From the NCBI RefSeq assembly GCF_001592735.1, contig NZ_LUKE01000001.1, forward strand, positions 62,001-126,000: 64,000 nucleotides of DNA. The letters run 5' to 3'. The position numbers and the translations under genes were made by a program. This stretch comes from Bdellovibrio bacteriovorus. Its GTDB lineage: Bacteria; Bdellovibrionota; Bdellovibrionia; Bdellovibrionales; Bdellovibrionaceae. Positions within the stretch are counted from its first letter, which is position 1; each line of letters begins with the position of its first letter. The notes beneath the pieces were generated by a model. That model was not told the origin of the DNA. It searched no databases and was given only the letters and a program-made list of their open reading frames with translations. Shown here in pieces: positions 29,567 through 51,632 of this stretch.

Positions 29567-29595
29567 TTGACAAAATTTCTATCTCGGACAATAAT
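29567..29595 (+). promoter_or_regulatory. Sigma-70 promoter of the AhpD/Rrf2 operon
   Basis: TTGACA at 29567-29572 is followed after exactly 17 bp by AATAAT (29590-29595), a near-consensus -35/-10 pair 26 bp before the ATG at 29621. The -10 box lies inside the operator palindrome. Confidence 0.75.
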
Positions 29596-29606
29596 TATCC
29601 GAGATA
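29580..29606 (+). promoter_or_regulatory. Perfect 9-9-9 palindrome, likely Rrf2 operator
   Basis: TATCTCGGA, a 9-bp spacer and TCCGAGATA form a perfect inverted repeat. It covers the -10 box of the promoter in front of the AhpD-like and Rrf2 genes. Rrf2 regulators bind dyads of about this size, so autorepression by the downstream Rrf2 gene is the simplest reading. Confidence 0.75.
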
Positions 29607-29620
29607 GAAATGGAGACAAA

Positions 29621-47692: not shown

Positions 47693-48249
47693 ATTCGAAA
47701 GCCCTAGGATTTTTCTTTGGCGGGTTATTACCCGTCATCGCCTTTACGGTGATTGAAGAATATTACGGTGTGATGGCCGGTCTTCTGGCCGGAATGGTTT
47801 TTGGCTGTGGCGAGATTATTTTTGAACTTTATAAATATAAAAAAATTCAGCGCATCACTTTGATTGGCAATGGCCTTTTAATTGGCCTGGGTGTGATCTC
47901 GCTGATTTCTTCAGAAGGCATTTGGTTTAAACTGCAGCCTGCCATCATGGAAGGCATTTTTGCGATCGTGCTGTGGGGCTCATGGGCCCTAAAAAAGCCA
48001 TTATTAGTGTATTTAGCCGAACAACAAGGACATCAATTTCCCTTGATCATTAAAGAAAAAATGAGTGGGTTCACATTCCGAATCGGAGTCTTCTTCGCTA
48101 TCCATGCGGCTTTAGCGACCTGGGCCGCGTTTTCGTGGAGCACGCGCGACTGGGCGCTGTTAAAGGGAGTTGGACTGACGGTTAGTTTTGTCCTGTATCT
48201 TGTCATTGAGGGTTTCATCCTGCGGCGGTCTATTCGTAAAATAGACTGA
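47689..48249 (+). CDS. YciB/septation protein A-like membrane protein
   Basis: A 186-aa integral membrane protein with six hydrophobic segments. The pattern (LGFFFGGLLPVIAFTVIEEYYG, IGNGLLIGLG, RDWALLKGVGLTVSFVLYLV) resembles the YciB/intracellular septation A family, which affects envelope synthesis and division. It is in an overlapping operon with dihydroorotase and a DUF6279 lipoprotein. Confidence 0.6.
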   Translation: MNSKALGFFFGGLLPVIAFTVIEEYYGVMAGLLAGMVFGCGEIIFELYKYKKIQRITLIGNGLLIGLGVISLISSEGIWFKLQPAIMEGIFAIVLWGSWALKKPLLVYLAEQQGHQFPLIIKEKMSGFTFRIGVFFAIHAALATWAAFSWSTRDWALLKGVGLTVSFVLYLVIEGFILRRSIRKID

Positions 48250-49076
48250 TGAAAAGAATTATATTTTCGTTATTCGCCGTTTTTATTTTATCCACCACCG
48301 CCTGCTCCCGCGGGGAATTCCTGTTCCGCTTTGCGGATGATTATGCCGCATCTAAGGCCGATCGTTATTTTGATTTAACATCGGCTCAGAAAAAAGAATT
48401 TAAAATAGAAATCCGTAAAGATATTGATACTGGCAAAAAAGAAGCTTTTCCTAAAATGGCAAATCGCCTTCGTCAGTTAGAAAAAGATATCAAATCTGAT
48501 GATGTGGATCCCGCAGTTTTCACCAAGGCCTTTAACGAAATTGAAAAACAAGTCAAAGGCATTGGCGTGTACTTTCAAGACACCGCGATTAAAACATCGT
48601 TAAATCTATCCCAAGCTCAAGTGGAACACTTTGCCAATGAAGTGCGCGAAGATATCGCCAAAGAAGAAAAAGATCCCGCAGAGGCTACCGAGAAAGTTGA
48701 AAAACGCTATCGCAAAAATATTGAATACTTTGTCGGCAGCGTGACTCGCGAACAAAATAAAATGATCCAAAGCTTTTTAGATAAAAATCCTTACCCTTGG
48801 CGCTTACAGAACCGCAGCCAAGAACATGTGGTGAAACAATTCGTGGTCGCAGCCCAAAGCCCCGATACGCGCAAGGCCTTCGTTGAAAAGTTCGCCAAAG
48901 ACTATGAATCTGTGCGCTTGCCAGAATACAGAAAAGCCTTGAGTGAACATCAAGCGGCATTTATTAGCTTCCTGACAAATGATTTTTGGAAATCGATGTC
49001 TAAAGAACAAAAAAAGACTTTCAAAGAAAACCTGATAGCGCGGGCCGAACAGTTAGAGCGTATTGCAAAGCAATAG
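48249..49076 (+). CDS. DUF6279-type lipoprotein
   Basis: A 275-aa lipoprotein (lipobox TTAC). All helical and charged, starting GEFLFRFADDYAASKADRYFDLTSAQK, matching DUF6279. It overlaps the upstream gene by 1 bp (TGATG). Function unknown. Confidence 0.7.
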   Translation: MKRIIFSLFAVFILSTTACSRGEFLFRFADDYAASKADRYFDLTSAQKKEFKIEIRKDIDTGKKEAFPKMANRLRQLEKDIKSDDVDPAVFTKAFNEIEKQVKGIGVYFQDTAIKTSLNLSQAQVEHFANEVREDIAKEEKDPAEATEKVEKRYRKNIEYFVGSVTREQNKMIQSFLDKNPYPWRLQNRSQEHVVKQFVVAAQSPDTRKAFVEKFAKDYESVRLPEYRKALSEHQAAFISFLTNDFWKSMSKEQKKTFKENLIARAEQLERIAKQ

Positions 49077-49115
49077 ATAGCAACAAAACACAGGCTTGAT
49101 AATCGAAACAAGACA

Positions 49116-49154
49116 AGCCATATTTAAACCCTCGATGGAGATTTAAATATGGCT
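49116..49154 (+). promoter_or_regulatory. Perfect 13-bp inverted repeat enclosing the start codon
   Basis: AGCCATATTTAAA (49116-49128), a 13-nt loop (49129-49141) and TTTAAATATGGCT (49142-49154). The GGAG ribosome site is in the loop and the ATG (49149) in the 3' arm. On RNA this would hide the start codon while leaving the Shine-Dalgarno accessible, a possible thermosensor or control hairpin. Confidence 0.6.
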
Positions 49155-50225
49155 CGGTTTTTTTGGATTATTCTCACTCTATTTTCCCCGTCTGCTTTTG
49201 CCCACGTGAAGTGGTTTACACGCGAAAGTTTCGCTAAACCGCCGATCACTTTTGCGGATTTAAATACTCCGACCTTTTGGAATCTTTTTGTCCTTTCCAT
49301 GTTCACTTTGGCGTCTTTAGTGTGGTTAGATCGCAGGCTTGAATCTTGGGGCACTTACCGCAAGATGAACGAATACTTTGATCAGTTTACTTCGCGCGCG
49401 ACTTTGATTTTGCGTGTCTTTACGGGTGCTTCGATTTTACTTTCTTGGCAGGTGGATTCGATGATCGCGCCTGAATTGCATCTATATTCCAGTGGCTGGG
49501 GTTGGTATCAATTCGCCTTGGCCTTGTTGTTATTATTCCGTGTCACCACGCCCGTTGCTGGTGCAGGCATGGTGGTCCTTTATATTTTTGCCGCGACCCA
49601 GTACGGCATTTATCACCTGCTTGATTACGTCGTTTATTTGGCGATTGGTATTTTCTTATTTCTTTCAAACAGCACCGACAAGCGCATTAAAGACCTGCGC
49701 ATTCCGGTTTTATACTCAGGCCTTGGATTTTCACTTTGCTGGGTGGCGATGGAAAAACTGTTCTTCCCCAATTGGGGATTAGACGTTTTACAACAACAGC
49801 CCGCTTTAACCATGGGCTTGCCGCCAGAATTTTTCTTAATGGCTTGCGCGTTTGTGGAAATGAGCTTGGGTTATTTGTTAATTATTTGCTTATTGCAAAG
49901 ACCTTTGGCTCTAGTGATCACGATCGTGTTCTTTACGACCACTGCTTTTTTTGGAAAAACGGAAGTGGTGGGCCACACCTTACTGCACGGCGCCTTGTTG
50001 GTTTTCGTCGTTGTCGGTCAACGCGGGACTTATCAGCCGCCGATTGCCTTTCATAAAAACTTGGGCCTGCGCATGGCCTTTGCCTCGGTGAACTTTGCCA
50101 TTCTTTTTGCGCTACTCGCGTATCCGTATCATAGGCTTTCACAACAAGCTTACGATAAACACCAGCACATGATGCAAGAAGCTCACGGCCATGCCGAAGA
50201 AAGCCATTCTGACGGAAGCCGTTAA
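49149..50225 (+). CDS. Multi-pass membrane protein, unknown
   Basis: A 358-aa protein with a signal-like first segment (PSAFAHVKW) and about eight more TM helices. The middle (LRVFTGASILLSWQVDSMIAP) resembles DoxX/DUF-type membrane proteins, and the C-terminus is His-rich (DKHQHMMQEAHGHAEESH), which may bind metal. Start codon lies in the 49116-49154 hairpin. No family confidently assigned. Confidence 0.6.
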   Translation: MARFFWIILTLFSPSAFAHVKWFTRESFAKPPITFADLNTPTFWNLFVLSMFTLASLVWLDRRLESWGTYRKMNEYFDQFTSRATLILRVFTGASILLSWQVDSMIAPELHLYSSGWGWYQFALALLLLFRVTTPVAGAGMVVLYIFAATQYGIYHLLDYVVYLAIGIFLFLSNSTDKRIKDLRIPVLYSGLGFSLCWVAMEKLFFPNWGLDVLQQQPALTMGLPPEFFLMACAFVEMSLGYLLIICLLQRPLALVITIVFFTTTAFFGKTEVVGHTLLHGALLVFVVVGQRGTYQPPIAFHKNLGLRMAFASVNFAILFALLAYPYHRLSQQAYDKHQHMMQEAHGHAEESHSDGSR

Positions 50226-50234
50226 ACGGCAATA

Positions 50235-50266
50235 AAAAAGCCTTCTCTTTTATGAGAAGGCTTTTT
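50235..50266. terminator. Bidirectional terminator
   Basis: AAAAAGCCTTCTC and GAGAAGGCTTTTT form a 13-bp stem with a 6-nt loop. It lies between convergent genes: the upstream membrane protein on + and the lipoprotein on -. T-tracts are at both ends. Confidence 0.9.
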
Positions 50267-50300
50267 AGTTTTAAGTTTTAGGGCTTAAATTTTAAAAATT

Positions 50301-51491
50301 TTAAAGTTCGTGACCATTGCGGATGATTTCTAAGATTTCATCGGCATCTTTACCGTGAGAACAACCGGCGTGATCGTCGACCGGGATTGAGATCTCTGGA
50401 TCAGCTTCAGAAACGACCGCAACGCCATTATAATCCAAACCTTTAGAACTTAGATAATCTTTGGCCCGGCTGCGAAGGCGTGACATTTGCGATCTTAGAT
50501 CTTGAAACTTCGTCGAGTATACCGACAATGCCGAATAATCTGCGTAATCAAGATCTTCATAATAAGATCGCTTGAAAGTCGAAATTTCCACATCCAATTG
50601 ATCAATAAAATCTGCCGTCTTTTTAGCTGAAGAAATCACGTAAGCCGCACCATTTAAACGCTGCTTATCTAAAACCATTTTCAATTGGCCGTTTTCAAGT
50701 TTTTCGCCCAGGATGGTTTCAATTGTCATTTCTTCTAAGAAATACTGTTTCACCAGTTCGATCATGGCGTCATTCATGTTTTTCAAAGTGACGTAAGTTT
50801 CTTTCACCGCCGTTTTTCGACTTGTGCCCGTCTTATAATCAATTGATCTTTTTTGCGAACCGTAAGTTGAATACAAGCTTAAAGCTTTTGTTTTAATCGC
50901 GTCACCCGAAAGGCCTTCTTCTTGAACTTGCGAATCAAACAAGTGATGCATGTATTCATGAACTAAAACCCACTTATTCGCATCAGAACGAACGATGATG
51001 GCAGCAAGGCCCTTTGTTGACGGCAGGCTGGTGGAGTTTTTAGAAAGATACAGGCCTAAAACGCCATTGTTTTGGTTAGCTTCACTGAATTTATTTTCTA
51101 AGTCAGACGGAGCCGACGGCAGCGCACTTGAAAATCCACACGTGCCCTCTTTGTAAGGACTTGTCTTATAAAAACGCACACCCGTGGTTTCTGCAAAACG
51201 AACGACTTCCGAACCGTTGGCCGCTAAAACTGGATTTAGTAAACTGACGTCGTATTTTTTACCGAAGTAGCTGGCTTGAATCTGTTTGTTCGCAGGCTTT
51301 ACTAAGGCGTTAGGACCTTCACTATATCCATAAAGACAAGAGGCCTCGATGTAACCCGTAAGATCGTCCTTAGGTTTGGTTTCTTTTTTTGAACCACCCA
51401 AAGCCGCCATCAAAACTAGTGTATTCGGCGCGCACGCCGTCCCCGATAAACCCACCACAGCAGCCAACGCCATCACTAAAGACTTCGTCAT
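50301..51491 (-). CDS. HEYMHH lipoprotein, putative metalloprotease
   Basis: About 396 aa with a lipoprotein signal (GTAC). Around the middle a zinc site VLVHEYMHHLFD (HExxH) is followed by helices with Glu residues; a metalloprotease role is likely but the third ligand is not clear. AAGGA is 7 bp before the ATG at 51491. The gene ends 35 bp from a shared terminator. Confidence 0.65.
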   Translation of the reverse strand: MTKSLVMALAAVVGLSGTACAPNTLVLMAALGGSKKETKPKDDLTGYIEASCLYGYSEGPNALVKPANKQIQASYFGKKYDVSLLNPVLAANGSEVVRFAETTGVRFYKTSPYKEGTCGFSSALPSAPSDLENKFSEANQNNGVLGLYLSKNSTSLPSTKGLAAIIVRSDANKWVLVHEYMHHLFDSQVQEEGLSGDAIKTKALSLYSTYGSQKRSIDYKTGTSRKTAVKETYVTLKNMNDAMIELVKQYFLEEMTIETILGEKLENGQLKMVLDKQRLNGAAYVISSAKKTADFIDQLDVEISTFKRSYYEDLDYADYSALSVYSTKFQDLRSQMSRLRSRAKDYLSSKGLDYNGVAVVSEADPEISIPVDDHAGCSHGKDADEILEIIRNGHEL

Positions 51492-51632
51492 ATCCATCCT
51501 TCATCCACCTTACATAAATTCGACCGGACGAGTTTTATCGCAAAGTCCGGCCGTTCGGGGAACGAAGTGAGGCGTAAGCATTCTTTTCTTAAGCTGTCCA
51601 ACGGTTGGACATGAGATCGGCTTTAAAGTCCT

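Follow-up and report, generated by a model that had tools for sequence, protein, structure and literature searches.

A perfect inverted repeat over the start codon of a DoxX-like gene in Bdellovibrio bacteriovorus: a possible guard against translation of read-through RNA

The transposase leaders of IS10, IS50, and IS200 hide the start site of translation in read-through RNA. A related arrangement is described for phage T4, where long read-through transcripts of the genes e, soc, 49, and I-TevI fold so that a helix encloses the Shine-Dalgarno (SD) sequence and/or the AUG (PMC3014915). In gene e, the hairpin silences the long early transcripts about 100-fold, while late transcripts start inside it: the promoter lies in the DNA encoding the 5' strand, yielding short, translated transcripts without this strand (PMC3014915). 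Zipper RNA thermometers (ROSE, fourU, Yersinia ompA) likewise place a hairpin over SD or AUG. Mismatches and bulges make these stems labile, and they melt at physiological temperatures. The Yersinia ompA thermometer is locked shut when one bulge is removed or one pair is added (PMC8245352).

The following sections concentrate on a perfect 13-bp inverted repeat (49116-49154) that covers the start of a gene for a DoxX-like membrane protein (Table 1). It lies in the window, i.e. the whole 64,000-nucleotide stretch of B. bacteriovorus DNA that was analysed (contig NZ_LUKE01000001.1, positions 62,001 to 126,000). The locus resembles T4 gene e in that, on long transcripts, a helix would cover SD and AUG, with a computed 19-20 kcal/mol required to open it. 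A second resemblance may lie in a promoter-like site whose -10 hexamer falls within the 5' arm and whose RNA start is predicted inside the structure, its score being reached by 2.8% of shuffles. Unlike gene e, this is a bacterial chromosomal gene encoding a membrane protein, its putative promoter is sigma-70-like instead of a T4 late promoter, and it is described here from sequence and computation alone. As in the IS10, IS50, and IS200 leaders, an inverted repeat here marks the border of a putatively mobile segment and would protect the first gene from outside transcription; unlike in these elements, no transposase or element ends were found here, and the gene is not one for mobility. The best account of the repeat appears to be that it guards against read-through in the manner of T4 lysozyme (gene e), a tentative reading judged somewhat less likely than not. 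If true, a type of control familiar chiefly from phage T4 would have an example on a bacterial chromosome, where a newly acquired gene is shielded from the transcription of its neighbours without a terminator.

The start-codon repeat and its rarity

The arms of the repeat are exact complements bracketing a 13-nt loop with the GGAG site, and the ATG lies in the 3' arm, as already described in the initial annotation and confirmed by the sequence. This ATG is the sole possible in-frame start of the gene: 24 bases before it begins an in-frame TAA (49125-49127), and no other start-type codon follows until HVKWF, beyond the signal peptide. The product is predicted to be a multi-pass membrane protein, as had been proposed, with a DoxX assignment (PF07681) just above the cut-off. 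The hairpin loop and arm also contain a minimal frame, ATG GAG ATT TAA (49134-49145), without an SD, which ends 3 bases ahead of the real start.

Table 1. Features at and around the start-codon repeat (positions in the window)
Feature	Position	Strand	Remarks
DUF6279 gene (PF19795)	48249..49076	+	upstream gene, last in three-gene overlapping set
Extra segment	49077..51632	.	DoxX-like gene and minus-strand gene 50301-51497; missing here in about 12 relatives
-35-like hexamer TTGATA	49096..49101	+	17-nt spacer; prediction only
Outer imperfect palindrome extension	49099..49171	.	30-nt arms, 25/30 complementary
5' arm, AGCCATATTTAAA	49116..49128	+	exact complement of 3' arm
-10-like hexamer CATATT	49119..49124	+	within 5' arm; RNA start at about 49131, in loop; both prediction only
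Loop, CCCTCGATGGAGA	49129..49141	+	contains Shine-Dalgarno and predicted RNA start
Shine-Dalgarno GGAG	49137..49140	+	in loop; ATG 8 nt further on
3' arm, TTTAAATATGGCT	49142..49154	+	start codon within
DoxX-like gene	49149..50225	+	multi-pass membrane protein, signal peptide, 358 aa
ATG start codon of DoxX-like gene	49149..49151	+	in 3' arm
Seven-T run	49158..49164	+	separated from stem by CGG (3 bases); codons 4-5 (FF) and first base of codon 6
Ordinary intrinsic terminator after DoxX-like gene	50235..50266	+	d score +20.9

The repeat was compared with a background of 1.27 Mb including the window, about a third of the genome, for which 1.2 Mb was fetched from the same genome. Background genes were called by a simple ORF rule, so that some of their starts are wrong. 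Perfect repeats of at least 12 bp number 60 in this background vs 5 in Markov sequence, and those of at least 13 bp number 40 vs 3. Four of the repeats of at least 12 bp were flagged as covering a start; judged by eye, a credible start codon is found only in the 49116-49154 repeat. Taken alone, a single perfect 13-bp repeat on one start codon per genome is not wildly improbable. With 25 of 30 pairs, the extension to 30-nt arms is the top case of the 1.27 Mb, and four Markov sequences contain none at that level, the threshold being the repeat's own value. At arms of 18-24 nt, the repeat is unexceptional in the same background; for this reason, and owing to the self-set threshold, the core carries more evidential weight than the outer extension. 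No second copy of the palindrome or of its paired arms was found in the genome, in which the half-site is common as background.

RNA folding and start-site occlusion

The hairpin alone has a computed energy of -17.1 kcal/mol. For the 111-nt region, the folding energy is -29.3 kcal/mol vs -15.0 +/- 2.9 kcal/mol for its shuffles (z -4.95), none of 200 being as low. When the 5' arm is present, opening the SD-AUG region at 30 C is calculated to cost 17-20 kcal/mol (mostly 19-20) vs a genome median of 7, which places the ribosome site of the DoxX-like gene 4th among 907 in the cost of freeing SD-AUG; ranked by plain folding energy, its start is 14th of 1171. The proposal that the start codon is hidden is thereby supported for any transcript with both arms. 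An RNA starting at 49131 and lacking the 5' arm frees SD-AUG at a computed 5-6 kcal/mol, below the genome median.

The initial annotation had further assumed that the stem opens on warming, which the calculation contradicts. All 13 of 13 pairs are Watson-Crick, without mismatches or bulges, and the computed probability of an unpaired AUG does not exceed 0.011 at any temperature between 4 and 60 C, so that more than 98% remains paired even at 60 C. At low temperature, the AUG is paired and the SD partly paired in the loop. In contrast to the imperfect stems of the zipper thermometers, this one has no defects and is calculated to remain closed up to 60 C; an RNA thermometer was rejected on the melting calculation together with the perfect pairing.

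Another form of regulation would require that the hairpin is part of the gene's own mRNA, starting at about 49110, and conceals the start codon until an sRNA, a protein, or a helicase opens it. The strong occlusion of the start site (4th of 907 genes) would fit, and a second, weaker promoter-like site, TAGATA/GATAAT, would start RNA at about 49110 and thus include the whole hairpin. This explanation is nevertheless decidedly unlikely: no trigger is known, warming is excluded by calculation, the homologues show no conservation of the repeat, and the Rfam search at this place yielded no family at its gathering score. All Rfam matches were sub-threshold; the one across the hairpin, to an animal microRNA on the minus strand, was discarded.

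Promoter-like sites, terminators, and read-through

TTGATA-17-CATATT, which matches the consensus at 9 of 12 positions, 4 of 6 in the -10 hexamer, is the best promoter-like site of the region. With E. coli promoter weights, a score at least as high occurs in 7% of divergent upstream regions, in 1.6% of gene interiors, and in the above-mentioned 2.8% of region shuffles; this modest score is suggestive, and a chance site is possible. As the -10-like hexamer sits in the 5' arm, the own mRNA of the DoxX-like gene may never carry the hairpin, a point missed by the initial annotation. A start-codon hairpin should hence be checked against a promoter map before it is named a thermosensor. The literature search found no paper mapping transcription starts for the group.

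Upstream, genes for a dihydroorotase, an IspA-like protein, and DUF6279 form a set of overlapping neighbours, the last with its stop codon 40 nt from the hairpin. Between this operon and the DoxX-like gene there is no convincing terminator, the score d being about -55, as in gene interiors. The repeat itself was tried as an intrinsic terminator and rejected: its stem is AT-rich, the T run stands 3 bases off (CGG), and d is -55 on the plus and -31 on the minus strand. A role in terminating the DUF6279 operon, in overlap with the start of the next gene, would agree with the location of the repeat 40 nt past a stop codon, with the seven-T run nearby, and with the fact that 48 of the 60 perfect repeats of at least 12 bp in the 1.27 Mb stand 3' of genes, mostly as terminators. 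Its gene-interior score, the AT-rich stem separated by CGG from the T run, and a consensus scan that does not list it on the plus strand all argue against this function, which is very improbable.

In the favoured read-through guard, the repeat would make the position of the RNA start decide on translation. RNA from the gene's own putative promoter (-35 TTGATA at 49096, -10 CATATT at 49119) would begin in the loop at about 49131, leaving GGAG and ATG free, and would be translated. Read-through RNA from the dihydroorotase-IspA-DUF6279 operon would comprise both arms, fold into the 13-bp hairpin, and remain untranslated. The outcome would be a DoxX-like gene insulated from its upstream neighbours. 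Promoter, read-through, and translation effect are the parts of this model that we infer. A ribosome terminating on DUF6279 would probably not melt the stem, with its stop codon 40 nt distant.

The guard is favoured on account of its gene e geometry and the contrast in opening cost between short and long RNA (5-6 kcal/mol from 49131 vs 17-20 kcal/mol with the 5' arm). The region's best promoter-like site, suggestive as it is, also speaks for it, as does a terminator score d of about -55 ahead of the gene, with a real terminator (+21) after it. In addition, the segment that carries the gene appears to be a new arrival downstream of an operon. Several points count against the guard: the promoter score is modest and possibly due to chance, the weaker second site would include the whole hairpin, and two other perfect repeats beside start codons in this genome resemble DNA operators. 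Moreover, selection for the repeat is unsupported, since it is not conserved in homologues. A more far-reaching version, which we regard as doubtful, is that of a horizontally placed chromosomal gene equipped with a translational insulator, where one DNA arm would provide both the promoter -10 and the RNA strand silencing read-through, so that the gene could be placed after any operon and still escape expression from it.

The inserted segment and possible operators

In about 12 relatives of the genus, the 3' end of the DUF6279 gene abuts or overlaps a convergent enoyl-CoA hydratase gene. The 2.5-kb two-gene segment between these genes was seen only in this genome, and the repeat sits at its edge. 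The second gene of the segment (50301-51497, minus strand) encodes a protein of 398 residues that begins like a lipoprotein and contains a motif of the HExxHH type (HEYMHH); it has no Pfam or NCBIfam match and only weak (25-29%) relatives in the genus. In genome G017, other genes occupy the DUF6279/enoyl-CoA hydratase junction, and its DoxX homologue is located elsewhere, beside a gene that we take to be LysR-type by reading of its sequence. With different extra genes here (49077-51632) and in G017 (L022), the junction is a recurrent insertion place. DoxX homologues of this type are patchily distributed (2 of 24 genus genomes, 11 of 369 genomes of the phylum sample), which fits horizontal movement. 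Terminal repeats of an insertion were considered and rejected, as the left palindrome has no partner at the right end of the segment; a mobile palindrome repeated in the genome was dismissed as well, only one copy being found.

No comparable repeat was found at the starts of the 8 homologues with a located start (L002, L003, L043, L045-L049; 54-59% identity; L042 was left out), the longest perfect repeats there being 4-7 bp. The initial annotation had regarded loss of the repeat in close relatives, along with arm mutations lacking an effect, as speaking against its proposal; among these 8 distant homologues (up to about 59% protein identity) the repeat is missing. Its restriction to this genome and its location at the edge of the inserted segment would also suit a functionless by-product, arisen by inverted duplication or a copying slip at that edge, or by chance in the AT-rich leader (35% GC); the imperfect 30-nt arms are the expected leftover of a template switch. 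This origin is unlikely in view of the perfect 13-bp core. Furthermore, both arms in RNA would silence the gene, yet the gene is open and has kept its signal peptide and full-length homology.

The main rival of the read-through guard is a function of the repeat as DNA, which is somewhat unlikely. A dimeric repressor, which would be encoded at an unlinked site, would bind both arms, cover the -10 and the RNA start, and shut the promoter, the RNA hairpin being irrelevant. The predicted -10-like hexamer CATATT in the 5' arm would fit such an operator, and so would two other perfect repeats of this genome, each beside an SD and ATG and surrounding the -10 of a good promoter, in gene sets with a repressor-type gene. 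Against the operator stand the missing regulator gene in the inserted segment, the paired arms, which are unique in the genome while the half-site is common background, and the geometry: simple dimer sites do not usually have arms whose centres are 26 bp apart and which continue, more weakly, to 30 nt.

The first of the two other repeats, a perfect 14-bp repeat at 29575-29611, surrounds the promoter TTGACA N17 AATAAT. Immediately after it come GGAG and the ATG (29621) of a gene of the carboxymuconolactone decarboxylase family, and the gene that follows (30094) encodes an Rrf2 regulator; the repeat looks like an autoregulated operator. The second (G000:C1:293271-293308; locus L070, 7271-7308), a perfect 17-bp AT-rich repeat, covers a promoter just before GGAGGG-ATG and precedes a two-gene set whose last gene encodes an ArsR-type regulator; it looks like the operator of this gene set. 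These palindromes share with the 49116-49154 repeat a perfect repeat over a -10 near SD and ATG. In the Rrf2 and ArsR cases, the arms flank the -10 and the regulator belongs to the gene set, whereas at 49116-49154 one arm contains the ATG and there is no regulator close by.

Two further repeats of this genome were recorded. Between two same-strand genes stands a perfect repeat (G000:C1:878136-878172, locus L099) with AT-rich arms of 13 bp and a loop of 11 bases, which resembles the 49116-49154 repeat in its composition. On the minus strand at G000:C1:426623-429067 (locus L077), a start codon is enclosed in an interrupted inverted repeat, GCATCG AAAA TAGAACCC ... GGGTTCTA CGATGC, and the ribosome site of this gene ranks 2nd of 907 in opening cost.
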